From Epibacterium ulvae (lineage in GTDB: Bacteria; Pseudomonadota; Alphaproteobacteria; Rhodobacterales; Rhodobacteraceae): a stretch of DNA of 64,000 nucleotides. Below the pieces are notes generated by a model. That model made no database searches and was not told the origin of the DNA. It worked only from the letters and a program-made list of their open reading frames with translations. Shown here in pieces: positions 1-16,728 of the stretch. The stretch spans positions 310,001 to 374,000 of the forward strand of contig NZ_FMWG01000004.1 in assembly GCF_900102795.1 (NCBI RefSeq), in the 5' to 3' direction. The translations under genes were made by a program, and so were the position numbers. Within the stretch, counting starts at the first letter, position 1. Each line of letters opens with the position of its first letter.

Positions 1-73
1 GCGCAAAAATGAAATCCACCACGTCCTGCGTGCGGGGCAGAGAGCCCACATGGGTTGTCTTGATTTTTGTCAT
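1..73 (-). CDS. MetE-like (cobalamin-independent methionine synthase II family) protein, 5' end only
   Basis: Only the first 24 codons are in the window; the gene runs off the left edge. The predicted start is MTKIKTTHVGSLPRTQDVVD. The T-T-H-V-G-S-L-P-R stretch is the hallmark N-terminus of stand-alone MetE C-domain-like proteins (UROD/MetE fold), many of which are unassigned methyltransferases in catabolic operons rather than true methionine synthases. A GGAGAG ribosome binding site lies at 79-86. The gene starts 17 bases after the upstream cupin stops, so it is probably the next gene of the same leftward operon. Substrate is unknown. Confidence 0.7.
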   Translation of the reverse strand, partial: MTKIKTTHVGSLPRTQDVVDFIFA

Positions 74-90
74 CTGGGCTCTCCGCTTGG

Positions 91-1059
91 TCAGTTGCCG
101 GTCCAGGTCATGCCGGGGACGTCGTCAGTTGCAGTTACACGGTACAGGCTGCATTCACCAGTCATTGCCGGTTCAAGGCTATAGGCCTCGGCTGCGTGGA
201 TTAGACTGGTGTCGCCAGGGTTGAGAATTTCGGATCCCCCGTCCCAACGTAGATGCCAATGGCCGCGCATGGGCATCAACACAGTCGGTTGGATCGCTGT
301 GATCATCTCAGCACCAAGGGAGCCACGTGTCAGGAAGTCGACCTCAAATCCCGGTTTGTCACGCAGCATAGCATCAGCGCCGATCACTTTGGCAGGCTTT
401 TTCCCAGCCATCGCCATCATGTCCCAGTAGCGCGCAACATAGTAGGGCACCACGTCTTCAACCGGGGTCTCAGGAAAAGCTTTCAACTGCTCTTCGCTCA
501 ACAACGGCATGGGACCAACGTTATGGGGCAGCTTCTGACCTTTTTTACTGTCATAAAGCACACCGTTTTCGCCCAGCATCAGGCCGTGGGATTGTGCTTC
601 TTCAATCACTTGCGGCGCCCAAGTGACACCGCCCCCTGCGTCATCACCGCCCAGAATGGCCATGATCATACCATAGTCAGTGCCGATGTTTTCAAAACCC
701 CGGAAAATCCCGGTGGGGATGTTGAAAATATCGCCTTCTTCGGCCACAAATTCTCCCGCATCGCCATAACGACCCCAGAAAAAACGCCAGCGGCCTTTAA
801 GAACAAAGAACACCTCGGCTGTGGTGTGGCTGTGCAGGGAGTTTCGGCATTTCGGAGGCTGGCCTGCGGCACCAATGTTAAAACCGATCTTATCGGTCAG
901 ATGTACGTGCTGGTCGGGGCTTTCAGAGACACCTCCACCGATAATGGTAAAGTTTTCCTTTTGATCGCTGCCCGGCGTGTGGGCGTCGATAAAGGCGGTT
1001 TTGCAGGGGCGCAGTTCGCCATAGCGAACGATGCGAGAGGAAATGGAAGATGTGGTCAT
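91..1059 (-). CDS. Cupin-domain protein (bicupin, possible dioxygenase or isomerase)
   Basis: A 322-residue protein of two cupin halves. The N-terminal half has a clear metal-binding motif near residues 77-95 (H-S-H-T-T-A-E-V-F-F, then G), giving the two His and one Glu expected of cupin motif 1. The C-terminal half keeps a weaker H-W-H-L-R-W segment near residue 270. There is no signal peptide, so it should be cytoplasmic. Start: ATG with AGGAC eight bases upstream. It is separated from the preceding SnoaL gene by about 180 bases containing a strong hairpin. Gentisate-dioxygenase-like or sugar-isomerase roles are possible in this fold; the sequence alone does not decide. Confidence 0.75.
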   Translation of the reverse strand: MTTSSISSRIVRYGELRPCKTAFIDAHTPGSDQKENFTIIGGGVSESPDQHVHLTDKIGFNIGAAGQPPKCRNSLHSHTTAEVFFVLKGRWRFFWGRYGDAGEFVAEEGDIFNIPTGIFRGFENIGTDYGMIMAILGGDDAGGGVTWAPQVIEEAQSHGLMLGENGVLYDSKKGQKLPHNVGPMPLLSEEQLKAFPETPVEDVVPYYVARYWDMMAMAGKKPAKVIGADAMLRDKPGFEVDFLTRGSLGAEMITAIQPTVLMPMRGHWHLRWDGGSEILNPGDTSLIHAAEAYSLEPAMTGECSLYRVTATDDVPGMTWTGN

Positions 1060-1137
1060 GGTGTTTGTCCTAAGCGTAGAAATGATGTGTTGGGTCCAAG
1101 TTTGGAAACGTCACATCATCCCCGGCGGATGCAGGTT

Positions 1138-1159
1138 AAGCCTGCGCGCGCGCAGGCTT
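1138..1159. terminator. 22-bp perfect palindrome between SnoaL and cupin genes
   Basis: Two 11-base arms (AAGCCTGCGCG and its complement) meet with no spacer, forming a GC-rich intergenic hairpin. There is no T-run on the leftward strand, so it is more likely an RNA-processing or stability element inside the operon, or a partial attenuator, than a full terminator. Confidence 0.4.
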
Positions 1160-1243
1160 TGACGATGCGCGTGATAGCGGCGCATCGCTTGCGTTTCATA
1201 CAGCCCGACGCGCGCGACGGGCTTTGGGGTGCAGGTCGACATG

Positions 1244-2233
1244 TCAAAACGTCTCGGTCTGCAAGAGGATTTGTTTCCACACTGCGATTTCATCAAACAG
1301 GGTGTATTCGCGGCGGATCTTCGGCTCACCCGCAACCAGCGCGCCGTATTCGGCATGGCTGATGCCCAGCACATACACATCGGCACCGGTCGGCGCACCA
1401 AAGGCGCCCCAGCCTTCGTGTTTGCCCTTCAGGCTCCAGCGGATCGCAGCGCGAGGCGGCATCATGGGATCATCGCGTCCAATCTGATGTTCGATGGTGA
1501 ATTCAGCATTTGGAAAGGCGGCGCGCAGGCTCATCCAGAAAGTATCTACTGGCTGCCAGCTGTGGCCGGTTTCACCGCCTGGATATTCGCTTTGGACGGC
1601 GCGATCATATGCTTCTGGGATCACAGCAAGATCCGCTGTCATGATCCGATTGAGCACCTCAGCGTAGCGCGCACCCCATTCGTTATCATTGCCGCGCCCT
1701 TTGTAGGGACCTTCAAGATCATTGGCAGGTGTCAGCGGTTTGATGCAGGCTTCGGGCCCACCCTCGCGAAGGATCTGATCACGCGCAAACTCTTTTGCGT
1801 CCCAGCCCATCTGCCGCACCACAGCGGAATTGTCACGGATCAGCCATTCGTCGTTGATGGCATTGTCGATGGCATGGCAGTCCGCCAAAATGCGATAGGT
1901 TAGTTTGGCACCTGTGGCTTTCCCAAAGGCACCGTCGCCTGTGTGGGTCGCAGTTGATAGAATCCGGTGCGAGCTTAGCATCCCGTCTTCGGGTGTCCCT
2001 GACCAGATTACATCTTCACCAAAGAGGGTGCGGTCGGAAAATTCTGCCAGCGTCGCCATAGTGGCGCCGATCACCCCTTTATTACCAGTCGATACCGATC
2101 CCGGCATACGTACGACGATATCTGGTGCGTAGTATTCGTGCAGGGTTGCAAGGCCGCGATCTTCCCAGATTTCTTTGGTGATCCCAACGATATAGTCGGG
2201 GAAGTCGCGGAATTTGGGGTTAAAACCCTTCAT
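1244..2233 (-). CDS. Tandem SnoaL/NTF2-like protein (polyketide-cyclase-like fold)
   Basis: A 329-residue protein with two NTF2-like halves, roughly residues 1-155 and 180-329. SnoaL-like alpha+beta barrels catalyse aldol cyclisation, isomerisation or hydrolysis of small hydrophobic substrates; the exact reaction here is unknown. I chose ATG at 2233 (MKGFNPKFRDF) because AAAGGAT lies just upstream; an in-frame extension to 2287 has no such site and runs deeper into the LacI gene. The start overlaps the lacI-like stop by 14 bases, indicating translational coupling. It is the most divergent of the double SnoaL proteins in this operon. No signal peptide is present. Confidence 0.75.
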   Translation of the reverse strand: MKGFNPKFRDFPDYIVGITKEIWEDRGLATLHEYYAPDIVVRMPGSVSTGNKGVIGATMATLAEFSDRTLFGEDVIWSGTPEDGMLSSHRILSTATHTGDGAFGKATGAKLTYRILADCHAIDNAINDEWLIRDNSAVVRQMGWDAKEFARDQILREGGPEACIKPLTPANDLEGPYKGRGNDNEWGARYAEVLNRIMTADLAVIPEAYDRAVQSEYPGGETGHSWQPVDTFWMSLRAAFPNAEFTIEHQIGRDDPMMPPRAAIRWSLKGKHEGWGAFGAPTGADVYVLGISHAEYGALVAGEPKIRREYTLFDEIAVWKQILLQTETF

Positions 2234-3272
2234 TGGTAGATCCTTTGGTATTCCATCCTTTCGGCATGCGCGCAGAGGTGCGCACAACCAAAGGGCTGTC
2301 TATAGCCACACGCCTGGGCATGGCCGTATCTGGGGTTGAAATGAGATCCATCAATGCGTCTACTGTCTCTGCCACCATCAGATTGGCGCGTTGACGCATT
2401 GTGGTTAGGTTATACGCAAGCCATGCAGCAGGAGGCACATCGTCATAGCCGATGACCGATACATCCTCTGGCACCTGCAGGTTCAGCTCAAACCGCAATA
2501 CATCCATCACGGCAAACGCCATGTGGTCGTTGGCGACGAACACCGCATCGGGCCGCAGGTTGGCAGGTTTATCAAACAAGTCGCGCGCAGCTTGTCGGGC
2601 CAGTTCAGTATTGAAGTCTCCCACGGCATAGGCATGAAGCTTATGCCCCGCCGCTGCAAGGCCCGCACGAAACCCGGCTTCGCGGTCGCGTTGAGTGGAT
2701 GCACCTTCCCAGCCCGCAATATAGGCGATCCGTTGATGCTCTCCCGCGATGAGAAATTCGGCCACTGTGCGCCCACCTGCATGGTTGTCTGACGACACCG
2801 CGGTGATGCCTTCGATATCTTGGCCCCGGTTGAAAAGAACCACTGGCACTCCAGCTTGCTGGCATCGCGCGGAAATGTCAGATGACATGGCAACCGAGGC
2901 CATGACAATGCCATCCACCTGATAATCCAGAATCTCTTCCATCACATCATCAATGTTGTCGGCGGTCTGCTTGGTCATGAAAACAAGCACGTGATAGCCC
3001 TGTTCCTGCAAAGCATTTGACAGGAGCTCCAGCGTTTCTGGGTAAAAGAAGTTTTCCAAATAGGCGACTACAAGCCCGATGATCCGGCTTTTACCTTTGA
3101 CCATGGCGCGCGCCAACACGTTGGGCCGATAGCCCAGTTCACGCGCTGCAGCGCGTACTTTGTCGGCAGTTTTCTGCGAAACCGACGCACCCGGTGTAAA
3201 CACGCGCGATACGGCAGACTGGCTGACCCCAGCCTTTTGAGCGACCTGTAGGGATGTGATCTTTGCTGCCAT
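2220..3272 (-). CDS. LacI-family transcriptional regulator
   Basis: A 350-residue regulator. The N-terminal helix-turn-helix (about residues 5-25, T-S-L-Q-V-A-Q-K-A-G-V-S-Q-S-A-V-S-R-V) is followed by the hinge G-Y-R-P-N-V-L-A-R-A-M and a periplasmic-binding-protein-like effector domain to the end. The ATG at 3272 shares one base with the SDR stop (TGATG), so coupling favours it over an in-frame TTG at 3287. It sits inside the operon it probably controls: two LacI-type palindromes with central CG lie in the divergent promoter region at 11517-11591. A sugar-like or sugar-acid inducer is expected from the family, not shown here. Confidence 0.9.
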   Translation of the reverse strand: MAAKITSLQVAQKAGVSQSAVSRVFTPGASVSQKTADKVRAAARELGYRPNVLARAMVKGKSRIIGLVVAYLENFFYPETLELLSNALQEQGYHVLVFMTKQTADNIDDVMEEILDYQVDGIVMASVAMSSDISARCQQAGVPVVLFNRGQDIEGITAVSSDNHAGGRTVAEFLIAGEHQRIAYIAGWEGASTQRDREAGFRAGLAAAGHKLHAYAVGDFNTELARQAARDLFDKPANLRPDAVFVANDHMAFAVMDVLRFELNLQVPEDVSVIGYDDVPPAAWLAYNLTTMRQRANLMVAETVDALMDLISTPDTAMPRRVAIDSPLVVRTSARMPKGWNTKGSTNEGF

Positions 3273-4039
3273 CAACCGGCTGTCCAACCCCCATCTATCA
3301 ACATAGAGGTTCCTGTTACCATGGCTGAGGCATCCGAGGCCAGAAACTGCACGGCCCCCATGATGTCTTCGACTTCACCGACACGGTCCAGTTTGATTTT
3401 GCTCAGGATCCACGCCAGCCGTTCAGGATTGTCGAATGTCGCTTCTGTAAAAGGCGTGCGGATGAAGGTTGGGCAGATCGAGTTGATACGAATGCGGGAT
3501 TTGCCCCATTCCATCGCCATGGATTTGATCATGCCCTCTAGCCCGTGTTTTGAGGCGCAATATAGCGCCCGATCAACACCACCTGTATGACCCATCTGGC
3601 TGGAGATATGGATGATTGATCCGGGCTTACCCGCAGCCATCATCGTTTTGGCAGCTTCAGCGGATAGAAAATAAGCCGAGCGCAGATTCACATGCATCAC
3701 GGTGTCAAAATCGTCAAGCGTGGTGTCCACGGCGGCACTGTGGCGGGCAACGCCTGCGGAATTGACAACCACATCAAAGGCCTCGCGCGCCATTACATTT
3801 GCCACAGCGGTTATATCGCCTTGATCTAACGGCAGGGCACTGACGCTCCAGCCCTCAGCTTTCATAGCTTCCACCGCCGCATTTAGTCGCTCGGCTCCGC
3901 GCGCGGCACAGACCACATGAGCACCTGTTTCGGCTAAGGCAATGGCACACCCAAGCCCAATGCCAGATGAGGCGCCGGTGACCAACGCTTTCTTCCCGGT
4001 TAAGTCAAACGAAGGGGTGCGCGGCAGATTTGTCATCAT
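3272..4039 (-). CDS. Short-chain dehydrogenase/reductase (SDR)
   Basis: A 255-residue classical SDR. The Rossmann cofactor motif T-G-A-S-S-G-I-G lies near residue 20, N-S-A-G near residue 90, catalytic Ser in the I-H-I-S-S segment, Y-C-A-S-K (catalytic Tyr/Lys) near residue 160, and a typical D-G-G-W C-terminus. It should use NAD(P)H to oxidise or reduce an alcohol/ketone. Its start overlaps the preceding double SnoaL gene by ATGA and its stop overlaps the LacI start, so it is firmly within the operon. It probably handles an intermediate between the HDH-like dehydrogenase and the SnoaL proteins; the substrate is unknown. Confidence 0.9.
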   Translation of the reverse strand: MMTNLPRTPSFDLTGKKALVTGASSGIGLGCAIALAETGAHVVCAARGAERLNAAVEAMKAEGWSVSALPLDQGDITAVANVMAREAFDVVVNSAGVARHSAAVDTTLDDFDTVMHVNLRSAYFLSAEAAKTMMAAGKPGSIIHISSQMGHTGGVDRALYCASKHGLEGMIKSMAMEWGKSRIRINSICPTFIRTPFTEATFDNPERLAWILSKIKLDRVGEVEDIMGAVQFLASDASAMVTGTSMLIDGGWTAG

Positions 4040-5085
4040 TTCAGGCCATCTGGTAAAGACAAGGGCACAATCGTGCGAGCCTTGTTGAATTCATTGAGGC
4101 GGGTAAAGACATCGATGCCCAGTTGATCATACACGTGTAAGAGATCCACAAGCACCCAGTTTTCCCGAATTCTACCACCCTCGACACGCCAGAAATCGAG
4201 CGACCGTAGAGAAATTTTCTGGTTCGTAGGTGGCAGTCCCAGCCAGCCTGCTTGGGATAGAGTTTGAACCATGTTGGGCCAACCCGTAACCGCAGCATAA
4301 GGGCCATCGCCAAAAAAGTGATGGGTGCTTTCGTCTGGGAATTGGCCACGATCTGGCATAGCGTTCAAAAACGGTATTTGGTGCCAATTGCGAAACCCAG
4401 AAATGCCGCGCGCCGTGCCAATCCCTGCTGGACCATACCAGTTCATTCGAGGATGCCAGAACTTGTCAAGTTCCATCACCTCGGGACCGCCCTGGGCCGG
4501 ATGGCGGATCAGGTGGTTCAGCATGTCGATGATCAGACCACAAGATGTTGTGCTTTGTTCAACGTCACGCGGGCCTGTAATCAGGCCGTTTTGGGGGGCA
4601 GGCGCCGGCGCAAGCCATTCTCGCCCTAGCGATGGAGCCAATGGCCAAGCCTTGGCCTGCATCATCATTTCGGGAATGTCCCAGATGGCTTGCATTTCAA
4701 CAATGCGATTATCTTCGAACCGAAAGAATTCGTGAAACCGCATAGCGACTTGATGGCCTGTGGGGGGAATGTTCAGCCAGGGTGCCGTGAATACGCCGGT
4801 GTAGTAGCCGCAACAGCCAACCCAATCATTGCCCTGTTCGTCGGGGCCAGACATGACGATGTAGTCCCGCCGCTCCAGATCGGGCAGGGCTGCAAATAAT
4901 GGTTTATAAGCCGTTTCATACAGTGCTTTTGGACCGGTCAAATCACCGAATGGGTGACACAGATGAGCAATCGCATCACCGGTAAAAATCCGCTCCAAAG
5001 CCGCACGAACCGGGCTTTCGGCAAAGTCATACATCGCTGCCTGGAGAGGGGCGATCAGGGTTTTATGTTGGCTGTGTTGATCCAT
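4036..5085 (-). CDS. Tandem SnoaL/NTF2-like protein
   Basis: A 349-residue protein of two SnoaL-like halves. Each half ends with the typical pattern: an R-F-H-E-F-F-R-F strand with a following E-M-Q-A-I-W segment in the first, and R-S-L-D-F-W-R-V plus E-N-W-V-L-V-D-L-L-H in the second. The closing D-F-W-R-V...E-N-W-V-x-V-D-L-L-H block is shared with the SnoaL proteins at 6483 and 11661, so these three are one sub-family. I used ATG at 5085 (MDQHSQHKT); the upstream in-frame TTG at 5133 lies inside a hairpin and lacks support. ATGA overlap couples it to the SDR. No leader peptide. Confidence 0.78.
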   Translation of the reverse strand: MDQHSQHKTLIAPLQAAMYDFAESPVRAALERIFTGDAIAHLCHPFGDLTGPKALYETAYKPLFAALPDLERRDYIVMSGPDEQGNDWVGCCGYYTGVFTAPWLNIPPTGHQVAMRFHEFFRFEDNRIVEMQAIWDIPEMMMQAKAWPLAPSLGREWLAPAPAPQNGLITGPRDVEQSTTSCGLIIDMLNHLIRHPAQGGPEVMELDKFWHPRMNWYGPAGIGTARGISGFRNWHQIPFLNAMPDRGQFPDESTHHFFGDGPYAAVTGWPNMVQTLSQAGWLGLPPTNQKISLRSLDFWRVEGGRIRENWVLVDLLHVYDQLGIDVFTRLNEFNKARTIVPLSLPDGLK

Positions 5086-5109
5086 AGAGTTCGGTCGATT
5101 AGAGGAAAG

Positions 5110-5131
5110 GAGAGCCCCTAATAGGGCTCTC
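5110..5131. terminator. Hairpin directly after the HDH-like gene
   Basis: Perfect 8-base arms (GAGAGCCC and GGGCTCTC) around a 6-base loop begin nine bases after the HDH-like stop codon. No T-run follows in the leftward direction, so it is more likely an intercistronic stability or processing element than a terminator. Confidence 0.4.
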
Positions 5132-5139
5132 AACTTATG

Positions 5140-6471
5140 TTAATCTAAGGGGTCACGGTAAGGCGCACCGGTGCCGTAGGGGACATTGATCCCCCCATAG
5201 CGCCGGACCCGAACGTTGCACTGTTCTGCGTGACCAACAAAACCTTCAAGCATACACAGGCGAGAGCCGTATTCGCCAATCAGCGTTGCTGCTTCATCCG
5301 TTGTGACTTTTTGATAGCTGTGGGTCTTCAGATACTTACCAACCCACAGACCACCCGTGTATCGTCCTGCCTTCTTGGTTGGTAGTGTATGGTTGGTACC
5401 GATCACCTTGTCCCCGTTTGAGACATTCGTACGCGGCCCAAGGAACAACGCGCCATAACAGGTCATATGTTCCAAGAACCAATCATCCCGGTCGGTCATG
5501 ACCTGAACGTGCTCTGAGGCAATATCATCTGCAACCTGCAGCATCTCATCATAAGTGTCACAAACGATAATCTCGCCGTATTCCTCCCAACTGACGCGCG
5601 CGGTGTCAGCCGTCGGCAAAATGCCGAGAATACGATCGATTTCTGAGAGAGTGTCCTCGGCGAGTTTCTTGGAGTTGGTCAGCAGAACGCATGGGCTATT
5701 GTAGCCATGTTCCGCTTGCCCTAGCAGATCGGTCGCACAGAGTTCGCCGTCAGCCGCGGTTTCATCTGCGATGACCATGGTTTCGGTGGGGCCCGCAAAG
5801 AGATCGATACCCACACGGCCAAACAGCTGACGTTTTGCTTCAGCTACAAAGGCGTTGCCGGGGCCAACCAGCATGTGCACGGGATCAATGGTTTCTGTCC
5901 CCAGTGCCATAGCGCCAATCGCCTGAATGCCGCCCATGACGTATATCTCATGTGCGCCACCCAGATGCATAGCTGCAATCACCGCGGGGTTAGGTTTACC
6001 CTTGAACGGGGGCGTGCAGGCGATGATGCGGGGGACACCAGCAACTGATGCAGTGGCCACTGACATATGTGCCGAGGCGACCATAGGGAATTTACCACCC
6101 GGCACATAACAGCCTACCGATTGTACGGGGATGTTTTTATGACCAAGGATCACACCCGGCATAGTTTCCACTTCGATATCCAGCATCGAGTCCCGTTGCG
6201 CCTGTGCAAAGTTGCGCACTTGCTCCTGTGCAAATTTGATATCAGCTAGCTCACGCTCAGACAGCTGTGCAATGAGATCATCTATTTCTTGCTGGCTCAG
6301 TCGGAAAGAGGCAGGCGAATAGCTGTCGAATTTCTCCGACAATTCACGAACCGCTGCGTCGCCGCGGGTTTCAATGTCTTTCAGTGTGGCTTCCACCACG
6401 GCGCGGGTCTTGGCATCGTCCTCGGCGCGATCAGCGTCGGATTTACCGCGTTTGAGATAATCGATGGTCAT
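5140..6471 (-). CDS. Histidinol-dehydrogenase-like alcohol dehydrogenase (HpsN-type paralogue)
   Basis: A 443-residue member of the histidinol dehydrogenase family. Residues that bind zinc and act in catalysis in HisD are retained: Gln/His in G-Q-A-E-H-G, Asp in [10 protein letters not shown], Glu-His in A-S-E-H-V, and a late His in E-G-F-V-G-H-A-E. The family oxidises a primary alcohol to a carboxylate in two NAD steps. The locus has no histidine biosynthesis genes and the protein resembles catabolic paralogues such as sulfopropanediol 3-dehydrogenase (HpsN), so a catabolic alcohol is likely. However, the hpsO and hpsP partners are absent, so that substrate should not be assumed. It sits 11 bases after a SnoaL gene. 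Confidence 0.85.
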
Positions 6472-6482
6472 TGCAAGGATCC

Positions 6483-7013
6483 TTAGTTGTCGGGGCGCGG
6501 AGGCGATTTCTCTCCGCGGTCAAATGCTTCCCAGCCCTGGCCGTTGAAAAGGTCGACACCCAGCTGGGCCGCAACATGGGCGAAATCGACGTTCACCCAA
6601 TTGTCGACGATCTTGCCGTCGACCACTTTCCAAAAGTCCATATAGCGAATTTCAACCCGCTTGCCGGTGGGGGCTATACCCAGAAACTCGCCCGTGTGGG
6701 TGGCTTCCTGGCGGCCAAAGGCAGCCGCCCATTCGCCCATATAAAGCCGGGCTTCGTCGATGCATACCTTGTCGGAAAACGCCGCCTGAAAGGGGCGTTG
6801 CCAATTGTCCTGAAACTCTTTCAGCCCGGTTTTGGTACCGCAGCCCTGATTGCCCATCCAGCGAAATCCTTGCGAGAAGAATTCGCCAATGTCAGTGATG
6901 CGGTGGTCGTTCAACCCATCGACCATGTTTTCGATCACGGCGCGAGTTTCGTCTGTTTTGCTTAGGTCGGTATCCTTGGTCAGGACGGCCTGTTCAGGGC
7001 GTGAGCCTTTCAT
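6483..7013 (-). CDS. Single-domain SnoaL/NTF2-like protein
   Basis: A 176-residue protein with one SnoaL-like domain. It shares the D-F-W-K-V...[10 protein letters not shown] closing pattern with the double-domain paralogues in this operon. Ester cyclase/hydrolase or isomerase activity is possible; no function can be fixed from sequence. Start: ATG with AAAGGA about nine bases upstream. It follows the ABC permease by 132 bases, the largest gap between the transporter and catabolic halves of the operon, so a secondary promoter or processing site there is possible. No signal peptide. Confidence 0.75.
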
Positions 7014-7145
7014 GTCGTTATTCCTTTCAGGTGTTGCGGACTTTCTAACAATGGGGAAGAAGGTTTCCCTTTTAGGTCAGAAAATCCCGCGGCATCCTGT
7101 TCAGGGCTGGATGGCGAGCTATCGCGCCATGTCGTGCATTTGCGC

Positions 7146-8027
7146 TCATCCTTTGACGGCTCCGGCGGTCAGGCCAGACACAATCTGGCGCTGGAAGAAC
7201 ATAACCAACACAAACAACGGAGCAGTAGCCGAGACCACGGCGGCGACGGCGAACATAACATTGCCCTCTTCCAGCGTGGAGCCAAGGAAGCCTGCGATCG
7301 CTGGAACCATGGTGCGGTTTTCTTCGCTTAGCAGCATCGATGTAACGGCAAAGTCGTTATAGGCCAACAAGAAGCTGAACAAACCAGTGGTGATCACACC
7401 AGGCCACATCACGGGGATGATCACATGGCGGAAGGCTTGAAATTGGGTGCAGCCGTCAACCTTGGCACTTTCGTCCAGATCTTTTGGAATATTCAAAAAG
7501 AACGAGTGCAGCATCCATAGTGTAAAGGGTTGATTGATCGCCACCAGCACAATGATCGAGGTCGGCAAATGCCCCCACAGGTTCCATTCAAAGAACGGCA
7601 GCAGATAGCCAGATACCAAGGTGATATGTGGCATGGCACGGAATACGAGGGCGATCATCAACAGCCCAAAAGCATATTTGCGCCCAGACCGCGCCAGCGC
7701 ATAACCGCCAAGTGTGCCAAAAGTCAGCGAAATGATTACGGTAAAAAACACAACGATCAGCGTATTGATGGCCGCGCGCCAGAACTCTTCCTGCACCCAG
7801 GCTCCATCATAGCCGGCCCCCGTGAATGTGCTGCCGGTTTCGATCAAAGTGCGGGTGCCCCACAAAGCATTGCGCCAATCGGCTTTGGAGAAGAAATCCC
7901 CCTGCACTTTGAACGAGCCCCAAAGGGTCCAAATGAAGGGAAAAGAGGCGACAGCAACCCAAAGCAGCACAAAAGCAGAGGAGAGGATAATGACAGAACG
8001 GGGTGACCGGTCGAGTGCAGAGGACAT
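7146..8027 (-). CDS. ABC sugar-type transporter permease (MalG-like)
   Basis: A 293-residue inner-membrane protein with about six hydrophobic segments and the permease EAA loop (D-E-S-A-K-V-D-G-C-T-Q-F-Q-A-F-R, near residue 190), which docks the ATPase. With the neighbouring MalF-like permease it forms the channel of a CUT1-type carbohydrate importer. The start codon overlaps the stop of the upstream permease by one base. An inserted periplasmic stretch between the first and second membrane segments (about residues 40-80) is longer than in MalG and may contact the binding protein. Confidence 0.9.
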   Translation of the reverse strand: MSSALDRSPRSVIILSSAFVLLWVAVASFPFIWTLWGSFKVQGDFFSKADWRNALWGTRTLIETGSTFTGAGYDGAWVQEEFWRAAINTLIVVFFTVIISLTFGTLGGYALARSGRKYAFGLLMIALVFRAMPHITLVSGYLLPFFEWNLWGHLPTSIIVLVAINQPFTLWMLHSFFLNIPKDLDESAKVDGCTQFQAFRHVIIPVMWPGVITTGLFSFLLAYNDFAVTSMLLSEENRTMVPAIAGFLGSTLEEGNVMFAVAAVVSATAPLFVLVMFFQRQIVSGLTAGAVKG

Positions 8028-9055
8028 CAGACAGCCTTTCCTTTGAAATCGCGCCAGGTGCGCAGCAGAACCGGGGTTAACAGGATGGCAACACCAATCA
8101 CGGTCAGGACCGAGGTCGCGGCAGCTGAATTGAACCGGGTGAGGTCACTGCGCATGTCAGCGTAGATGATGTAAGAGAGCGAGGTCGCATTGGCCTGTGC
8201 CGAAAAGCCGACGATGGCTTCAAAGACGCGGAAGTTATCCATCAGCTGGATCAGTGAGATAAAGACCACCAGCGGCATCAGATGTGGGATTACCACATAG
8301 CGTATTTGCTGCCAGCGGGTGGCGCCATCAATCATAGCGGCTTCTAGGGAATCTGAGTTGACAGTCTGTAGGCCTGCGTAAAATACCACAAAGGCAAAAG
8401 GCGCAGAACTCCAGACCCCATATACCATCAGGGTGATCCACGTCAGAGCTGGTGAAGCTTTGAGGGACAATTCTGGATCGTCAAACACCCATTGCAGTGT
8501 TTTACCAATGACCCCTTGTGCGTCTATCATCCAGAATAGGATCAGCGAGCCAATCAGCGGCGTGATGATCATCGGCAACAAGGATACAAAAATCGTGGGA
8601 CCTTTGAGCAGGCTGGGCAGGCGGTTGACCCCCAGTGCGATCAGCAGCCCCAGCAGGATCACCAAAGGCGTGACTAGGAACGTATAGGTCAACGTAAAGG
8701 CCAGCGCCTTGTAGAAAGGCAGATTGTAAAGTTCTGACAGAAAACCGCCAAACCCATCACGGTTGCGCCAGGCCTCGGCGATTTCGGCGGTCGCCAGATG
8801 GCCACGATCAAAATAGGTGCTAAGACCAGCAAACCGGCCCAAGGGTTGTTCTGCACGCAGTTGCGCAGTGGCCTCGGTATCGACTGAGCTTTCTTCAGTA
8901 CAACCAAACGGACCACAGTTTTCGGTCACGACAATGACCTGCTCATGTTCGATGTGCAGGGACTGCACCACCACCGACACAAGGGGCAGCGCAATAAAAA
9001 GGATCATTGCTGCCAGACTGGGCAGAATAAACCAAAAGAAGGTTTTATGTCGCAT
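8027..9055 (-). CDS. ABC sugar-type transporter permease (MalF-like)
   Basis: A 342-residue inner-membrane protein. After the first membrane span it has a periplasmic insertion (about residues 30-105) containing two Cys (N-C-G-P-F-G-C) that could form a disulfide. The EAA loop (E-A-A-M-I-D-G-A-T-R-W) lies near residue 240. It pairs with the MalG-like permease that follows directly. It starts 69 bases after the binding-protein gene. The solute is unknown; the family takes up mono- and oligosaccharides, polyols and glycerol phosphates. Confidence 0.9.
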   Translation of the reverse strand: MRHKTFFWFILPSLAAMILFIALPLVSVVVQSLHIEHEQVIVVTENCGPFGCTEESSVDTEATAQLRAEQPLGRFAGLSTYFDRGHLATAEIAEAWRNRDGFGGFLSELYNLPFYKALAFTLTYTFLVTPLVILLGLLIALGVNRLPSLLKGPTIFVSLLPMIITPLIGSLILFWMIDAQGVIGKTLQWVFDDPELSLKASPALTWITLMVYGVWSSAPFAFVVFYAGLQTVNSDSLEAAMIDGATRWQQIRYVVIPHLMPLVVFISLIQLMDNFRVFEAIVGFSAQANATSLSYIIYADMRSDLTRFNSAAATSVLTVIGVAILLTPVLLRTWRDFKGKAV

Positions 9056-9124
9056 GAAAGATCCGTCCGGTTCGCGTGTGAATTGGACAAAGCACGCTGT
9101 GGCGCTTTGCCCGTTGAGCTTCGC

Positions 9125-10360
9125 TTAGTTCAGGAAGCCTTTTTCTTTCGCAGCAGCGATGTATGACGCTTCAACATCTGCCAACGCCTGTTCCGCAGTC
9201 TCTTTCCCTTGCAGGAAGTCTGTCAGCTCATCTCCCAATGCGGTGTGCATCAGCCCCATGAAAGGGATCATTGGGTAAGGTTTTGTTTTGCCTGCGGCTG
9301 TTGCGAACACACCGGCAGACGCAGGCGCGGGCTCATAACCTTCGACGAGCCAAACCGCTGCGTCGTTATTGGCCTTGACCACTTCGGTGCTGATGCCGTT
9401 CAGCATCGCAACAAAGCTGGCTTCAGCGTCTTCATCGCTGGCGTTACTCGCAATCGCAAACCCATCCCACCATAGGGTTGATGCAGGAATGTCACCGCCT
9501 CCAACAGTTGGGGATGCAATCAACGAGGTGTTGCTGACGATATCTTCGGACGATCCTTCATCGTCCAGAATTCCAGTCCCGCGTGAGCCCCAGAGATGTG
9601 CCATTGCGATCTCACCTGCTTCCCATGACGCTTGAACCGCATTGGAATCAAAGGTCAAATAGTCGGGGTTGGACAGTTCGGTCAGCGCTTTTAATGTATT
9701 CAGCGCTGCAACACCGGCTTCGTTGTTAACTGTAGGTTCAGCAGTGCCCGATTTGAAGAATTGACCACCGTGGCCCAAGTACATATTTACGAATTCTTCG
9801 CCCAGGTTCCAACCCGTTTGGCTGGTGGTGGCAAAGGGATGGTCCATCAGGCCTGCGTCTTTGATGGCCTTGCCCGCAGCAATGACTTCTTCATAGGTTT
9901 CAGGCGCGTCCAGGCCGACCTTTTCAAGAATATCATCGCGTACAAACAGGTGCTGCGCGTTTGCCATAAAGGCAATCGCCATGACTTTACCATCAACCGT
10001 GATCAATTGGTTTTTGCTCAGGTGCTGGCCGTGCTTCGCGATCAAATCGTCCAGCGGCCGGATCAGATTGTCGCTCAGCAGAGGTACGATTGCGGCGTTT
10101 GTGGTGGTGACAGCACTGTATTGCGCGGGATTTGCTGTTAAGGCGGCAACCTGGAGTTCGCGATAATCTTTGTTCAGGTTGCTTTCAACGGTAACACCAT
10201 CGTCTGCGCAGGCCTTTGCGCCATCGGTAACAGCTTGGATTGCTGCAAATTCGTTGCCAAGGATGCTGACATTACCATTTGAAATTCCACAGCCTGCAAA
10301 GGCGGTTGTACCCATCAGAATAGCTGCAGCGCTTATCATTGAAACTTTTTGAATAGACAT
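9125..10360 (-). CDS. ABC transporter extracellular solute-binding protein (family 1)
   Basis: A 411-residue periplasmic binding protein. The N-terminus (MSIQKVSMISAAAILMGTTA) is a signal peptide with a likely cut after F-A near residue 23. The mature part has the two-lobe organisation of CUT1 sugar-binding proteins, with Trp-rich ligand regions (L-W-W-D-G-F-A near residue 300). I chose ATG at 10360 because GGGAGACAG precedes it; an in-frame upstream Met at 10393 has no such site and spoils the signal peptide. It lies between the ATPase and permease genes of the same operon and determines the substrate of the cluster. Confidence 0.9.
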   Translation of the reverse strand: MSIQKVSMISAAAILMGTTAFAGCGISNGNVSILGNEFAAIQAVTDGAKACADDGVTVESNLNKDYRELQVAALTANPAQYSAVTTTNAAIVPLLSDNLIRPLDDLIAKHGQHLSKNQLITVDGKVMAIAFMANAQHLFVRDDILEKVGLDAPETYEEVIAAGKAIKDAGLMDHPFATTSQTGWNLGEEFVNMYLGHGGQFFKSGTAEPTVNNEAGVAALNTLKALTELSNPDYLTFDSNAVQASWEAGEIAMAHLWGSRGTGILDDEGSSEDIVSNTSLIASPTVGGGDIPASTLWWDGFAIASNASDEDAEASFVAMLNGISTEVVKANNDAAVWLVEGYEPAPASAGVFATAAGKTKPYPMIPFMGLMHTALGDELTDFLQGKETAEQALADVEASYIAAAKEKGFLN

Positions 10361-10444
10361 TTCTGTCTCCCTGTTCTGGATCAAAATTTGCACAAATGAC
10401 CCGGTTGGCCTTCGCTGTACACACGAAGACTTTTGTTTGGGGTG

Positions 10445-11497
10445 TTAACCCCCCAATCGCGCGCCATCCTCTGCGTTGAAGAGATGGCAAATCTCACTCG
10501 GAATACGGATCGAAACAGTGTCGCCAATGGCCGCACGGAAGGTTTTATCCGCTTTAACCGACACCAGCGCTTCGCCAACACGGACCGACACCATGGTGGC
10601 ATCGCCCAAAAGTTCCAGCGTGTAAATTGGAGCATTGATCTGCCCCTGCGCTTCTCCCGCCAAAGATGCATCCTCGGCGCGGAAGCCCAGCGTGAGCGGC
10701 CCATCTGGCGCGTTCAATCCGGTGATTTCAACATGTTCTGCGATAAAGGTTCCGGCACTAACGGTCCCCTTCATCAAATTCATGGCGGGTGAACCGATGA
10801 AGCTGGCCACAAAAGCATTGGCGGGGCGATCATAGATTTCAGTCGGAGACCCCACTTGCTGAACCACGCCACCTTTCATGACAACCACACGATCCGCCAA
10901 TGTCATCGCTTCAATCTGATCGTGGGTCACATAGATCGTGGTAACCGCCAGTTCATGGCTCAGGTTCTTAATTTGCGCACGCGTAGATACGCGAAGCTTG
11001 GCATCAAGATTCGACAGCGGTTCATCCATCAAGAACACATTTGGCTCACGGACAATCGCACGTGCCAGGGCCACACGCTGTCGCTGACCGCCAGACAGTT
11101 CAGCGGGTTTGCGGTGCAAAAATTCGTCCAGCTCAACCATGGCTGAGGCACGGCGTACTTTGGCATCGTGCGTGGCTGGGTCGATCCCGCGCACTTTGAG
11201 TGGAAAGCGAATGTTCTCATAAACGTTCATATTGGGATAAAGCGCATAAGACTGGAACACCATCGCCACATCGCGGTCTTTAGGTTCCAGATCATTTACG
11301 GTAGTGCCATCGATTAAGATCTCACCTTCGGTCACATCCTCAAGCCCGGCAATCATCCGCATCGTCGTTGTCTTGCCGCAACCGGATGGGCCAAGCAGAA
11401 CCAGAAACTCTTTATCTGCAATCGTCAGATCAAAGTTTTCGACACCAACAAAAGATCCCCAACGCTTTCCCACGTTGCGCAGTTGAATTTCAGCCAT
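10445..11497 (-). CDS. ABC transporter ATP-binding protein (UgpC/MalK type)
   Basis: A 350-residue ATPase: Walker A G-P-S-G-C-G-K-T-T near residue 38, signature L-S-G-G-Q-R-Q-R near 135, Walker B F-L-M-D-E-P, H-loop T-H-D-Q near 190, and a C-terminal MalK-type regulatory (TOBE) domain from about 240. It energises the two permeases downstream. ATG at 11497 is preceded by GGGAGA; the in-frame ATG at 11524 falls inside the LacI-type operator and is not used. It is the first gene of the leftward operon, so its promoter is the operator-bearing divergent region. Confidence 0.92.
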   Translation of the reverse strand: MAEIQLRNVGKRWGSFVGVENFDLTIADKEFLVLLGPSGCGKTTTMRMIAGLEDVTEGEILIDGTTVNDLEPKDRDVAMVFQSYALYPNMNVYENIRFPLKVRGIDPATHDAKVRRASAMVELDEFLHRKPAELSGGQRQRVALARAIVREPNVFLMDEPLSNLDAKLRVSTRAQIKNLSHELAVTTIYVTHDQIEAMTLADRVVVMKGGVVQQVGSPTEIYDRPANAFVASFIGSPAMNLMKGTVSAGTFIAEHVEITGLNAPDGPLTLGFRAEDASLAGEAQGQINAPIYTLELLGDATMVSVRVGEALVSVKADKTFRAAIGDTVSIRIPSEICHLFNAEDGARLGG

Positions 11498-11516
11498 GTC
11501 GTCTCCCTGACGGTAT

Positions 11517-11536
11517 TTTTGCATACGTTTGCAAAA
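11517..11536. promoter_or_regulatory. LacI-type operator 1
   Basis: Near-perfect 20-base palindrome TTTTGCATACGTTTGCAAAA with central CG, 19 bases upstream of the ATPase start. Central CG palindromes of this length are typical of LacI-family regulators. Confidence 0.7.
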
Positions 11537-11569
11537 TGCTAATGTGCTAGCAACACTTCAGGCAAGACA

Positions 11570-11591
11570 TTTTTGCATACGTATGCAAAAA
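11570..11591. promoter_or_regulatory. LacI-type operator 2
   Basis: Perfect 22-base palindrome with half-site TTTTTGCATAC, the same sequence as operator 1 with one position corrected. Centre-to-centre spacing to operator 1 is 54 bases, about five helical turns, which would suit looping or cooperative binding and control of both divergent arms. Confidence 0.75.
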
Positions 11592-11660
11592 TAGTCTGGA
11601 AAAGATGAGTCTCCAGCATATCTGGTGGAGGGCTAGGTGCTGAGACGAAAGGAAAAATAG

Positions 11661-12662
11661 GTGTCCGTTCAGGAAAGCAAAAAAATTGTGCGGGCCTTTA
11701 TCCAGCAAATGGATCAGGCTCAACTCAAAGACGTGGACGCCGTTTGTAAAGCGTCTTGTGCGCAGAATATTCACTGGCGCGGGTATCATCCGTTCAACGA
11801 GATTCGCGATATTCAGACGGTATCGGAACAGTTTTGGCGCCCCTTAAAGGCAAGCTTCACGGGACTGACACACCGCTTGGACGTGTTTATGTCCGGCGAA
11901 AACATGTATGAAACACCCGGGGGTACTTGGGTGGTGACCATGGGCCATTTGATGGGCTTGTTTGATCAACCGTGGCTGGGCATTCCTGCCACGGGCAAAC
12001 TGGCTTTTCTCCGGTTTTGTGCGTTTCACCGGGTTGACGGCGATAAGATTGTCGAAACGGCTATGTATTTCGATCTGCCACATCTGATGGAGCAGGCGGG
12101 ATTGCTGCCGTTCCCGGTACAAACTGCAGCACAATTGGTGCAGCCTGGTCCTGCCACCCATGATGGATTGATGTTTGATAACCAGCCTCAGCACGAAGCT
12201 GAGAAAACGCTGGCGATTATCAATGCGATGGTCTCAGATCTTGGCCAATGGCAATCGGGTCTGCCATTGGAGGAAGAGCTGGCGCGCACATGGCACCCCG
12301 ACATGCTGTGGTGGGGACCGACCGGCATTGGCGCAACCTACACCATTCCGCGATACGCGCGACAGCATGCAGGTCCGTTTCGTTCCGGGTTCAAAGATCG
12401 ATCAGGAACCGGGCATATCTGCCGAATTGCCGAAGGCCACTACGGAGGATTCTTTGGCTGGCCCAATTTCACTGCAGTGCCCACAGGTGGGTTCATGGGC
12501 ATGCCGGCCACGGAAAAGCCCGGCGAGTTCCGCGTCATCGACATCTATCGGCGCGAAGGAGATAAGCTGAAAGAGAACTGGGTATTCATAGATCTGCTAC
12601 ATTTTTGGAAATCACAGGGTGTCGATATTTTGGAACGCACAACGGGGATTTCAACGATATGA
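11661..12662 (+). CDS. Tandem SnoaL/NTF2-like protein
   Basis: A 333-residue protein with two SnoaL-like halves. It belongs to the same sub-family as the double protein at 4036: both contain W-L-G-I-P-A-T-G-like/W-L-N-I-P-P-T-G motifs in the first half and E-N-W-V-F-I-D-L-L-H in the second. The start is GTG, with GAAAGGA upstream. It is the first gene of the rightward arm, 69 bases after operator 2, and overlaps the amidohydrolase start by ATGA. Duplicated double-domain paralogues on both arms suggest they act on related intermediates of one pathway or form hetero-oligomers. Confidence 0.78.
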   Translation: MSVQESKKIVRAFIQQMDQAQLKDVDAVCKASCAQNIHWRGYHPFNEIRDIQTVSEQFWRPLKASFTGLTHRLDVFMSGENMYETPGGTWVVTMGHLMGLFDQPWLGIPATGKLAFLRFCAFHRVDGDKIVETAMYFDLPHLMEQAGLLPFPVQTAAQLVQPGPATHDGLMFDNQPQHEAEKTLAIINAMVSDLGQWQSGLPLEEELARTWHPDMLWWGPTGIGATYTIPRYARQHAGPFRSGFKDRSGTGHICRIAEGHYGGFFGWPNFTAVPTGGFMGMPATEKPGEFRVIDIYRREGDKLKENWVFIDLLHFWKSQGVDILERTTGISTI

Positions 12663-13531
12663 AAATTGATGCGCATCACCACCTTTGGGATCTGAACGCC
12701 GTCCATTACCCATGGTTGATGGCAAAAGGCGAGCCGCGATTTTTTGGCGACCCAGCGCCAATTCAACGCGATTACTTACTGGAAGAATTTACACGGGATG
12801 CCAAAGCGCAAGGGTTTGAAGGATCCGTTCATATTCAGGTTGGCTCTGCCGATCCATTGGCCGAGGCGCAGTGGGTACAATCGGTTGCCGACGCCAATCC
12901 AGACTGGCCGATGGTACAGGTTGCGTTTTGTGATCTCACGGCGCCAGACGCCGAAGCGCAGTTGGACGCGCTTCAGGATTTACCAACAGTGCGCGGCGTG
13001 CGCCAAATTATCGGACGTGCCCCCGGCGAAGACGCGGTGACGGGCACCAATGCGTTGCTAGACAACCCTATGTTCTTAGCGCGATTGCAAGGTTTGGCAA
13101 AGCGCGGGTTGAGCTTTGATCTACAATTGCTTCCTGAGCTGATGCAGCAAACCGCAGCGGTGATGGCCCGCGCAACTGATACTCAGGTTGCTCTGTGCCA
13201 CGCGGGATCCCCACATGATCGCAGCCCAGAAGGCTTGAGCTATTGGGCGCAGCAGCTGTCCTACCTGTCTGAGCTGCCGAATGTGGCGTGCAAACTGTCC
13301 GGACTTGGCATGTTTGAGCCGCACTGGAACGCGCAAAGCGTTGCACCGATTGTTGAAACGATCCTTTCGCAGTTCTCTCCTAAGCGCTGCATGGTCGGTT
13401 CTAACTTTCCTGTGGATTCACTAAATGCAAACTACGATGTGCTGATGGAAAACTATCGCACGCTCGTTCCTCAAGCAGACGTTGAGGATGTTTTTGGTTC
13501 GACCGCATCATGGTTTTATGGATTGCGGTAA
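12659..13531 (+). CDS. Amidohydrolase family 2 protein (fuconolactonase/PDC-lactonase type)
   Basis: A 290-residue TIM-barrel metal-dependent hydrolase. It begins MKIDAHHHLWDL (H-x-H metal ligands), has L-C-H-A-G near residue 180, and ends with G-S-N-F-P-V-D, the segment carrying the catalytic Asp in this family (usually G-S-D-W-P-V). Relatives hydrolyse sugar lactones or 2-pyrone-4,6-dicarboxylate. Start chosen at the ATGA overlap with the preceding SnoaL gene. Lactone hydrolysis after oxidation by the HDH-like or SDR enzyme would fit a sugar-like pathway; this is inference. Confidence 0.85.
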   Translation: MKIDAHHHLWDLNAVHYPWLMAKGEPRFFGDPAPIQRDYLLEEFTRDAKAQGFEGSVHIQVGSADPLAEAQWVQSVADANPDWPMVQVAFCDLTAPDAEAQLDALQDLPTVRGVRQIIGRAPGEDAVTGTNALLDNPMFLARLQGLAKRGLSFDLQLLPELMQQTAAVMARATDTQVALCHAGSPHDRSPEGLSYWAQQLSYLSELPNVACKLSGLGMFEPHWNAQSVAPIVETILSQFSPKRCMVGSNFPVDSLNANYDVLMENYRTLVPQADVEDVFGSTASWFYGLR

Positions 13532-15174: not shown

Positions 15175-15176
15175 GA

Positions 15177-15683
15177 TCAAGCGCCTTTTCCTAAGAGAAA
15201 TTGTAGTGTGCGCAGCGCAAAGAAAAGCGCAGTTAGGGCGCAGGCGACGGCAAGGATATAATAGAACGGCGTATGCTCGATCCCGAGGTTCGACGTAATT
15301 GCACCACACTCCAATCCGCAGCCACCCTTTTTGACCAGGGCACGGACCGCCGTTGCCAGAATGGCAAAAGAGAGAAAGTGCACAGCAATATCCGAATAAC
15401 GCAGAAAGCGTGCCGATACGTGCCGTTCTATGAGTTCGATTGTTACGTGGGCCCCATGGAGGGCCCCGTAAAAGATTGCGCAGGCCACGACCACAGAAGC
15501 TCCCAGCACCTGCAAGTCTTCGATACCAAACAAGGCATCGTTCAGAACATACCTCCAGAAGACGCTGACGACAGTCAGGACCATCATGAAAAAGATGCCC
15601 AGACCTCCAATGAAGCAGGCGATAGCACCCAGTTTGTTCATTATGCCTGCAAGCGGCAGTTTTTCCGTATCGTGGCCTGACAT
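15177..15683 (-). CDS. dctQ: TRAP transporter small permease (DctQ)
   Basis: A 168-residue membrane protein with four hydrophobic segments and the DctQ pattern R-Y-V-L-N-D-A-L-F-G-I-E-D-L-Q in the first loop. A periplasmic loop near residues 115-125 has two Cys (G-G-C-G-L-E-C-G). It pairs with DctM in the inner membrane and lies four bases after dctP. The TRAP system takes up organic acids or related solutes using an ion gradient. Confidence 0.9.
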   Translation of the reverse strand: MSGHDTEKLPLAGIMNKLGAIACFIGGLGIFFMMVLTVVSVFWRYVLNDALFGIEDLQVLGASVVVACAIFYGALHGAHVTIELIERHVSARFLRYSDIAVHFLSFAILATAVRALVKKGGCGLECGAITSNLGIEHTPFYYILAVACALTALFFALRTLQFLLGKGA

Positions 15684-15687
15684 GGGC

Positions 15688-16671: not shown

Positions 16672-16728
16672 CTTCAGTACTCCAACTGTTGGTTTCAAGC
16701 GAGGGGAGTGCCTGGTTTCCAGGTCATA

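Follow-up and report, generated by a model that had tools for sequence, protein, structure and literature searches.

A putative LacI-controlled catabolic cluster with tandem SnoaL proteins and a distinct histidinol-dehydrogenase-fold enzyme in Epibacterium ulvae

We analyzed a 64,000-nucleotide stretch of the Epibacterium ulvae genome (contig NZ_FMWG01000004.1, positions 310,001 to 374,000; the window), which opens inside a cluster of about sixteen neighboring genes with four SnoaL-type proteins (SnoA to SnoD). From a divergent region at about 11.5 kb, the minus-strand genes run toward base 1 in the order ATP-binding cassette (ABC) ATPase, solute-binding protein, two permeases, SnoC, the histidinol-dehydrogenase-fold enzyme HDH-a, SnoB, a short-chain dehydrogenase/reductase (SDR), LacI, SnoA, a bicupin, and the start of a MetE-like gene. 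The plus-strand half consists of SnoD and then a family-2 amidohydrolase. The initial annotation, made from the letters of the window, listed the MetE-like gene as a member; the gene is genuine, although the window contains just its first 73 bases. Past base 1 the cluster continues with genes for an alpha/beta hydrolase and an RraA-like protein (G000:C15:307554-308943). The features are as follows.

C15:307554-308261, outside the window: RraA-like aldolase (PF03737, 61.1 bits, cut-off 24.5)
C15:308251-308943, outside the window: alpha/beta hydrolase (Abhydrolase_6, 55.4 bits, cut-off 26.3)
1..73, minus strand: first 24 codons of the MetE-like gene (377 aa, PF01717), the rest lying outside the window to G000:C15:308940
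91..1059, minus strand: bicupin (Cupin_2, 31.5 bits, cut-off 27.2)
1244..2233, minus strand: SnoA, tandem SnoaL protein of two domains (PF07366 57.2 bits, PF12680 38.6 bits)
2220..3287, minus strand: LacI-family regulator (profile match)
3272..4039, minus strand: SDR oxidoreductase (KduD-like, 200.7 bits, below the equivalog cut-off of 338.85)
4036..5085, minus strand: SnoB, tandem SnoaL protein of two domains (PF07366 89.3 bits, PF12680 61.8 bits)
5140..6471, minus strand: HDH-a, histidinol-dehydrogenase fold, motif GKFPM (Histidinol_dh, 443 bits)
6483..7013, minus strand: SnoC, single SnoaL domain (PF07366 75.2 bits, PF12680 55.8 bits)
7146..8027, minus strand: CUT1 ABC permease 1 (Pfam)
8027..9055, minus strand: CUT1 ABC permease 2 (Pfam)
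9125..10360, minus strand: ABC solute-binding protein (SBP_bac_1)
10445..11498, minus strand: ABC ATPase, UgpC/MalK type (NF008653), start moved from 11524 to 11498
11519..11534, unstranded: putative LacI operator O2, TTGCATACGTTTGCAA, a near-copy of O1
11573..11588, unstranded: putative LacI operator O1, TTGCATACGTATGCAA, a perfect 16-bp palindrome
11661..12662, plus strand: SnoD, tandem SnoaL protein of two domains (PF07366 60.7 bits, PF12680 46.7 bits)
12659..13531, plus strand: accessory amidohydrolase of family 2, lactonase-like (Amidohydro_2; L-fucono-1,5-lactonase model)

The ATPase most likely starts at 11498 rather than 11524. For the amidohydrolase the most likely start is 12659 rather than 12605, with an ATGA overlapping the SnoD stop; its search query and rows began one codon ahead of this ATG.

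An open-frame check recovered all four SnoaL-protein frames at the coordinates first reported, and the seven domains attributed to them (three tandem doubles, SnoA, SnoB, and SnoD, plus the single SnoC) are borne out: PF07366 scores range from 57.2 to 89.3 bits, all four above the cut-off of 28.4. Profile matches likewise confirmed the neighbors that the initial annotation had described (HDH, SDR, LacI, CUT1 importer, amidohydrolase, and cupin). Asp at the SnoaL catalytic position, which we take to be Asp121 of SnoaL, is kept in all seven halves, and an Asp of 1sjw is the counterpart of SnoC D143 in the alignment. Against the SnoaL/DnrD methyl-ester cyclase model NF033407 (cut-off 200) SnoC reaches 44.1 bits; no match to this model was listed for SnoA, SnoB, or SnoD. 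The predicted SnoB model contains two SnoaL folds in one chain. In Foldseek the whole chain had Lsd19 as its top match by E-value, at a TM-score of 0.31 and a root-mean-square deviation (rmsd) of 17 A, and the separate domains matched IdmH, AclR, and SnoaL2. A tree of the SnoaL domains had long branches and unsettled bootstrap values.

The nearest solved relatives of HDH-a are dehydrogenases of 2,3-dihydroxypropane-1-sulfonate (DHPS), at E ~1e-112. According to PMC11382572, CpHpsN performs a four-electron oxidation in which Glu318, His319, and Asp352 matter for catalysis, and His126, the final residue of G-R-Y-A/S-H, recognizes the sulfonate. HDH-a has GKFPM where HpsN has GRY[A/S]H and retains the zinc and catalytic residues (EH, QAEH, GDK, and a late His). 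The pattern G[KR][FY]P[MLI], in which Met, Leu, or Ile replaces His126, holds in the window HDH-a and in 47/47 cluster HDHs compared (a second class, HDH-b, included); 19 of 20 further HDH-a rows fit it as well, the other being GAFPM. With His126 replaced and the catalytic and zinc residues kept, a DHPS-kind sulfonate is an unlikely substrate for HDH-a. An HpsN-type copy with GRYSH (46% identity to HDH-a) is present in the same genome at G000:C22:29732-31039 (L010, L123), so DHPS use there is likely separate from the cluster. A true HisD, with motif GLASY, is on another contig. HDH-a also lacks the HisD substrate motif, given as G-S-A-P-L in PMC11382572, and is separated from the 16 HisD rows at a support of 100.

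In a tree of 64 HDH sequences, a quick tree built without bootstrap, HisD (16), HpsN (6), and HDH-b (10) each fall on one side of a branch, with supports of 100, 100, and 92. Thirty of the 32 HDH-a rows defined by motif form one branch (support 95); one Deinococcus pair (L079b, L119b) lies outside, requiring one extra change. HDH-b, with motifs GR[FY]P[LI] and SDK, comes from amidase-bearing clusters. As judged from motifs and tree, HDH-a appears to be a class separate from HisD and HpsN. It is a guess that the Lys beside its zinc-binding Asp may suit another anionic group. Elsewhere in the genus, three HDH genes (two HDH-a and one HDH-b) lie within 19 kb at G295:C7:174604-193338, and in L102 and L103 an HDH-a relative (65-66%) stands beside a thiamine-diphosphate enzyme, a sugar-type binding protein, and GMC oxidoreductases.

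Scanning a collection of 84,980 species genomes for matches to SnoB peptides gave 54 related loci, a set that favors close relatives because of how it was found. Genes were assigned from open frames only, at 40% identity or more, and labeled by the best window query, which may file distant SnoaL paralogues under SnoA, SnoB, or SnoD. Gene order is similar in many of these loci; a few, L030, L038, and L045 among them, show little else. Among the 32 loci with full 10-kb flanks, HDH-a was assigned in 29, SnoA in 27, the SDR and LacI in 25 each, the cupin in 23, the ATPase in 18, the MetE-like gene in 16, and the alpha/beta hydrolase and RraA in 13 each. The amidohydrolase was assigned in only 7 of the 54 loci (5 of the 32) and is therefore an accessory gene, although the initial annotation had named it together with HDH and tandem SnoaL for a check of co-occurrence. 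For the other two the co-occurrence is borne out. Within 295 genomes of the same family (SnoB-type at E up to 1e-30, which also admits paralogues of 37 to 43% identity; HDH-a at E up to 1e-170), 118 have SnoB-type, 143 HDH-a, and 123 SnoA proteins. SnoB occurs with HDH-a in 113, with SnoA in 115, and with both in 111. Fisher's test for SnoB with HDH-a gives p = 6.6e-46, a value that overstates independence because the genomes are related.

Chance proximity had been named as a possible objection; SnoB-type proteins without an HDH-like gene occur in only 5 of the 118 genomes. The recurrent gene order and this co-occurrence show that the SnoaL, HDH, and importer genes are a real co-organized unit, as first proposed. 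The initial interpretation is supported in part: it does not account for the 27 of 143 HDH-a genomes in which neither SnoA nor SnoB has a match, nor for the aldolase and hydrolase beyond the window, which belong to the unit too. Within the genus, 5 of 13 genomes (G000, G295, G297, G299, and G301) yielded the HDH-a motif; the distribution of the cluster or of its HDH is therefore patchy. An integrase-core (rve) transposase gene, probably IS3-like, lies near the cluster (window 18159-18809) and may relate to this patchiness. The cultured relatives Ruegeria sp. THAF33 and Paracoccus alcaliphilus have the cluster on plasmids.

More distant versions vary in composition. A Vibrio pelagius plasmid (L068) carries four tandem-length SnoaL genes and an importer beside sarcosine oxidase and purU. 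On a plasmid of the haloarchaeon Halobellus limi (L069, 12926-19319), five consecutive ester-cyclase genes, of which four have tandem length, accompany a MetE-like gene, an aldehyde dehydrogenase gene, and an ABC importer. In Ensifer adhaerens NER9 (L122, 12001-18937), a SnoA-type gene, an HpcH-type aldolase, a hydrolase, and a cupin occur with the 3-oxo-tetronate kinase OtnK and an aldolase, neighbors that possibly hint at C4 sugar acids.

The two operator-like sites, O1 and O2, lie 54 bp apart in the intergenic stretch between the divergent ATPase and SnoD genes. They are the only sites in the window within three mismatches of TTGCATACGTATGCAA (0.28 expected) and the only sites in the 3.99-Mb genome within two. 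Across the family, 52 of 295 genomes have a site within one mismatch versus 2 for the reversed pattern, which served as the whole-genome control, and 51 of the 52 also have HDH-a or SnoB. With close pairs entered once and gene positions taken only for genomes with a site, 47 of 56 operator places lie within 15 kb of HDH-a or SnoB. Six of the remaining nine adjoin cluster genes (amidase/HDH/SnoaL; cupin; cupin plus hydrolase; SnoD three times); three have no cluster genes, and one of these adjoins an ABC ATPase of 47% identity, no specific sign. A site within two mismatches is present in 53 of 91 loci and in none of the shuffled loci (three runs, base composition alone being kept). Sites within one or two mismatches occur in clusters of Priestia, Deinococcus, Pantoea, Novosphingobium, Roseibium, Alloyangia, and Sinorhizobium, and close variants of the palindrome adjoin related genes in Rhodobacterales, Rhizobiales, Sphingomonadales, Pantoea, Deinococcus, and Priestia. 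Because operator-like sites recur beside cluster genes across genomes, there is strong evidence, at the level of sequence, that the cupin, hydrolase, SnoaL, HDH, and importer genes would answer to one regulator, in keeping with the single LacI regulator of the initial annotation. A scan of the divergent region for sigma-70-like promoters found none; three terminator-like sites were identified there versus 0.3 in shuffles.

The remaining enzymes carry recognizable active sites. In the alpha/beta hydrolase Ser62, Asp182, and His210 are invariant and presumably catalytic. R132 and D133 of the RraA-like protein are invariant in 26 sequences and are taken to be the RraA metal site. An HpcH/HpaI-type aldolase occupies the RraA place in sister clusters, in L098 by Pfam, in L094 and L095 by clustering with the L098 protein, and by annotation in Deinococcus, Pantoea, Priestia, and Novosphingobium. 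Both aldolase families form pyruvate, and that two unrelated families alternate within the set is our best indication of a retro-aldol step at the end of the pathway. Lobe 1 of the bicupin has an HxHxxxE metal motif (H76, H78, and E82), and the best folds for its AlphaFold model (predicted local distance difference test score, pLDDT, 88.6) are the quercetin dioxygenase YxaG and oxalate decarboxylase. The amidohydrolase reaches 110.3 bits against the L-fucono-1,5-lactonase model NF052480, below the cut-off of 400.

In the MetE-like protein (PF01717 49.9 bits, cut-off 21), H243, C245, E277, and C343 are invariant in 33 sequences, presumably as the His/Cys/Glu/Cys of the MetE zinc site. In Croceicoccus and Sphingobium, relatives of the MetE-like gene adjoin or lie close to folate one-carbon genes, a weak pointer to a methyl group on the substrate. 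In these loci (L076, 13001-15271; L082, 11995-14285) a MetE-like gene, a single NTF2 protein, and IclR stand in a row near folate one-carbon/aminomethyltransferase-type genes, a possible demethylation gene pair.

For uptake, the ATPase scores above the cut-off of the UgpC model NF008653 (449.5 bits, cut-off 432). CUT1 importers and LacI regulators are typical of carbohydrates. The solved relatives of the solute-binding protein include, among the seven matches listed, proteins for sulfoquinovosyl glycerol, chitin oligosaccharide, maltose, xylo-oligosaccharide (XOS), and trehalose/maltose; they are too distant and diverse to identify the ligand.

A related arrangement lacks SnoaL proteins. Six loci of the family (L089, L091, L094, L095, L098, and L101) combine importer genes with an amidase, HDH-b, HDH-a, and a cupin, and no SnoaL match was found within 19.9 kb in any of them. 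Pfam identified one amidase (L091) and one HpcH/HpaI protein (L098) in these loci, the others being placed by clustering. All six have operator-like sites. L101, where the stretch stops partway through the importer, is the one locus in which LacI and the SDR were not assigned, and L098 the one without an assigned hydrolase. Neither SnoA nor SnoB has a match in five of the six genomes; in the sixth, G153 (L101), SnoA has one on a different contig. We fetched 20 stretches, 17 of them from the 27 genomes with HDH-a but neither SnoA nor SnoB matches (G049, G175, and G153 are not among these genomes), and five of the 17 are of this amidase plus second-HDH type. The neighbors of SnoaL-free HDH-a genes were too diverse in context to yield a substrate. 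An annotated amidase occurs together with a tandem-length SnoaL protein in Roseibium, Pantoea, Sinorhizobium, Novosphingobium, Priestia, and Alloyangia, and the Deinococcus cluster has an annotated carbon-nitrogen hydrolase.

We read these arrangements as a common core with exchangeable entry modules, SnoaL sets in some clusters and amidase plus HDH-b in others. On balance we lean slightly toward a widespread undescribed pathway with one conserved LacI operator (TTGCATACGTATGCAA; Pseudomonadota, Deinococcota, and Bacillota) and two new HDH-fold specificity classes. Tandem SnoaL proteins would act in it as catabolic lyases, tautomerases, or ring openers, and they and amidase plus HDH-b would be alternative entries into an HDH-a/SDR/cupin/hydrolase/pyruvate-aldolase core. 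In E. ulvae the cluster may be a regulon dedicated to the catabolism of a small polyhydroxylated compound resembling a sugar, polyol, or sugar acid, a proposal that, taken together with the mechanism below, we regard as evenly balanced.

The linkage, operator-like sites, enzyme classes, and residue conservation above are computed; from these we infer LacI repression, the individual reactions, and their order. The compound would enter via the CUT1 ABC importer. LacI would repress both halves of the cluster from the paired palindromes until the compound or a product of it binds the repressor. HDH-a, using zinc and NAD, could oxidize a terminal CH(OH)-CH2OH or CH(NH2)-CH2OH group to the acid in one four-electron reaction, and the SDR could convert a secondary alcohol to a ketone. 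The SnoaL proteins may then transfer protons on the keto acid or its cyclic form, bringing about dehydration, keto-enol tautomerization, or ring opening or closing; several successive SnoaL steps on a lactone-forming, sugar-like compound are plausible. The alpha/beta hydrolase (and the amidohydrolase where present) would cleave a lactone, ester, or C-C bond, and the metal cupin may act on an enol intermediate. A final retro-aldol reaction by the RraA-type aldolase, or by an HpcH/HpaI-type enzyme elsewhere, would yield pyruvate and a small aldehyde. This scheme draws on the enzyme classes, on the aldolase exchange, and on catabolic precedents: the NTF2/SnoaL protein MgaD is a predicted tautomerase in syringate/gallate catabolism (PMC12314914), and SteC and BaiE are SnoaL/NTF2 dehydratases in catabolic routes (PMC13101464).

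Four other explanations were considered. One, which we think unlikely, is that the pathway serves amide-bearing substrates: an amidase and a second HDH would open the molecule in the sister clusters, and in the present cluster SnoaL proteins would open a related compound without an amide in a comparable way, by hydrolysis or elimination. The six SnoaL-free loci with their operator-like sites fit this view, as do the six genera with both an amidase and a tandem-length SnoaL protein and the carbon-nitrogen hydrolase of Deinococcus. However, the present cluster has neither amidase nor HDH-b, amidase and SnoaL are not simple replacements where they co-occur, the genome of L101 (G153) has a SnoA match, and we found no known case of SnoaL amidase activity. 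Distinctly less probable is an aromatic- or pyrone-like route in which SnoaL dehydrations would lead to an enediol or aromatic ring, the cupin would cleave it with O2, and hydrolase and aldolase would finish as in meta-cleavage. The predicted cupin model is closest to quercetin dioxygenase, and syringate/gallate catabolism pairs a 4-carboxy-4-hydroxy-2-oxoadipate (CHA) aldolase with a predicted NTF2-type tautomerase (PMC12314914). In Croceicoccus, moreover, the MetE-like relative lies near gallate/protocatechuate-type and folate one-carbon genes. Yet the cupin metal site looks incomplete, and no LigAB-type ring dioxygenase or flavin hydroxylase was recognized among the annotated genes. The carbohydrate character of the importer and regulator also argues against an aromatic compound.

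Two further possibilities can largely be set aside. That the cluster degrades organosulfonates of the DHPS type, with HDH-a as its HpsN, is very improbable even though HpsN is the closest solved relative (E 1e-112) and shares the catalytic and zinc residues: the replacement of His126 by Met, Leu, or Ile led us to reject the HpsN assignment, the genome has its separate GRYSH copy (L010), and no sulfolactate lyase or other hps gene was recognized among the Pfam-annotated genes. A natural-product biosynthesis cluster is the least probable of all. SnoaL proteins are polyketide cyclases, and tandem SnoaL domains, two in one chain, occur in Lsd19 in polyether assembly; the Foldseek matches of the SnoB chain and its domains point the same way. 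Against this, no polyketide synthase, nonribosomal peptide synthetase (NRPS), or terpene gene is among those annotated, and polyketide biosynthesis was rejected for want of a synthase gene in that set; SnoC scores far below the methyl-ester cyclase cut-off, and the importer and aldolase point to uptake and breakdown.

The preferred regulon and its mechanism also face observations that weigh against them. A pair of window sites at three mismatches was equaled (two or more sites) in 4 of 100 shuffles, and at three mismatches or fewer the genome has 15 places, 13 of them other sites with three, versus 6 for the reversed control. No site within two mismatches was found in the clusters of Phaeobacter piscinae (L074), V. 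pelagius (L068), Halobellus (L069), or Ensifer NER9 (L122); L074 and L068 have three-mismatch sites only, and L069 and L122 none within three. In the stretches read, neither the V. pelagius nor the Halobellus version shows an HDH. Among the 32 full-flank loci the MetE-like gene was assigned in only 16 and RraA in 13; many loci thus lack an assigned MetE-like or RraA gene, so that parts vary, are replaced, or sit elsewhere. HDH-a and the SDR also occur in five settings (L085, L087, L090, L092, and L093) without SnoaL, cupin, or aldolase matches, and for this reason the pair may be a generic module. Finally, the bicupin has Arg120 near what we take to be the position of the last His ligand of the cupin motif, which leaves us unsure of a dioxygenase role.

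A complete TRAP transporter (DctM, DctQ, and DctP) adjoins the cluster at window 13867-16698 and was rejected as a member, being assigned in 0 of 54 related loci. In L012 (5157-11024) a 1955-aa open frame without a Pfam match above cut-off lies between the cluster and the flagellar export genes FliR/FlhB. PADLOC, run on six proteins, gave no defence-system match, and a defence reading was dropped.

Because HDH-a occurs in 143 and SnoB-type proteins in 118 of the 295 family genomes, the substrate is probably a common marine compound, and relatives in leaf, nodule, and rhizosphere-soil bacteria suggest that it occurs on land too. Naming it would explain a large gene block now labeled "histidinol dehydrogenase" and "ester cyclase." It would also show whether SnoaL folds, best known from antibiotic synthesis, carry several successive breakdown steps. 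The operator and the solute-binding protein offer two direct handles on substrate identity. The initial annotation knew of no pathway of this composition; we likewise found no matching pathway and no description of the composition among the titles and abstracts listed by searches of the open-license PMC literature, although a subscription paper could exist. The part families and the general plan (LacI, importer, and enzymes) are already known; the novelty would lie in the pathway itself, in the HDH classes, and in stacked SnoaL proteins being put to catabolic use.

Compared with known systems, SnoB resembles the lasalocid epoxide hydrolase Lsd19 in having two SnoaL-type domains per chain; unlike SnoB, Lsd19 is biosynthetic, and the whole-chain TM-score is only 0.31 (rmsd 17 A). 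The SnoaL, SnoaL2, AclR, and IdmH cyclases and hydroxylases differ from the cluster proteins in the latter's catabolic setting, tandem chains, and, for SnoC, a score below the methyl-ester cyclase cut-off. The syringate/gallate route of Pseudomonas sp. NGC7 (MgaD, GalC) offers a likeness on the catabolic side, GalC being presumably an RraA-type aldolase. There, a predicted NTF2/SnoaL tautomerase acts ahead of the CHA aldolase (PMC12314914). The route differs in that no counterpart of its ring-cleavage dioxygenase MgaAB or tautomerase GalD was recognized in the cluster, and MgaD belongs to pfam13577 whereas the cluster SnoaL proteins belong to PF07366/PF12680. HisD shares PF00815, the zinc ligands, and the catalytic Glu-His with HDH-a but has Asp-Tyr at the Asp-Lys position of HDH-a. 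HpsN (Cupriavidus pinatubonensis, 8v35; (R)-DHPS dehydrogenase, 8wwe) shares the family, the zinc and catalytic residues, and the Asp-Lys pair (352/353 in CpHpsN), and is set apart by its sulfonate-binding His126, a separate tree branch, and other gene neighbors.

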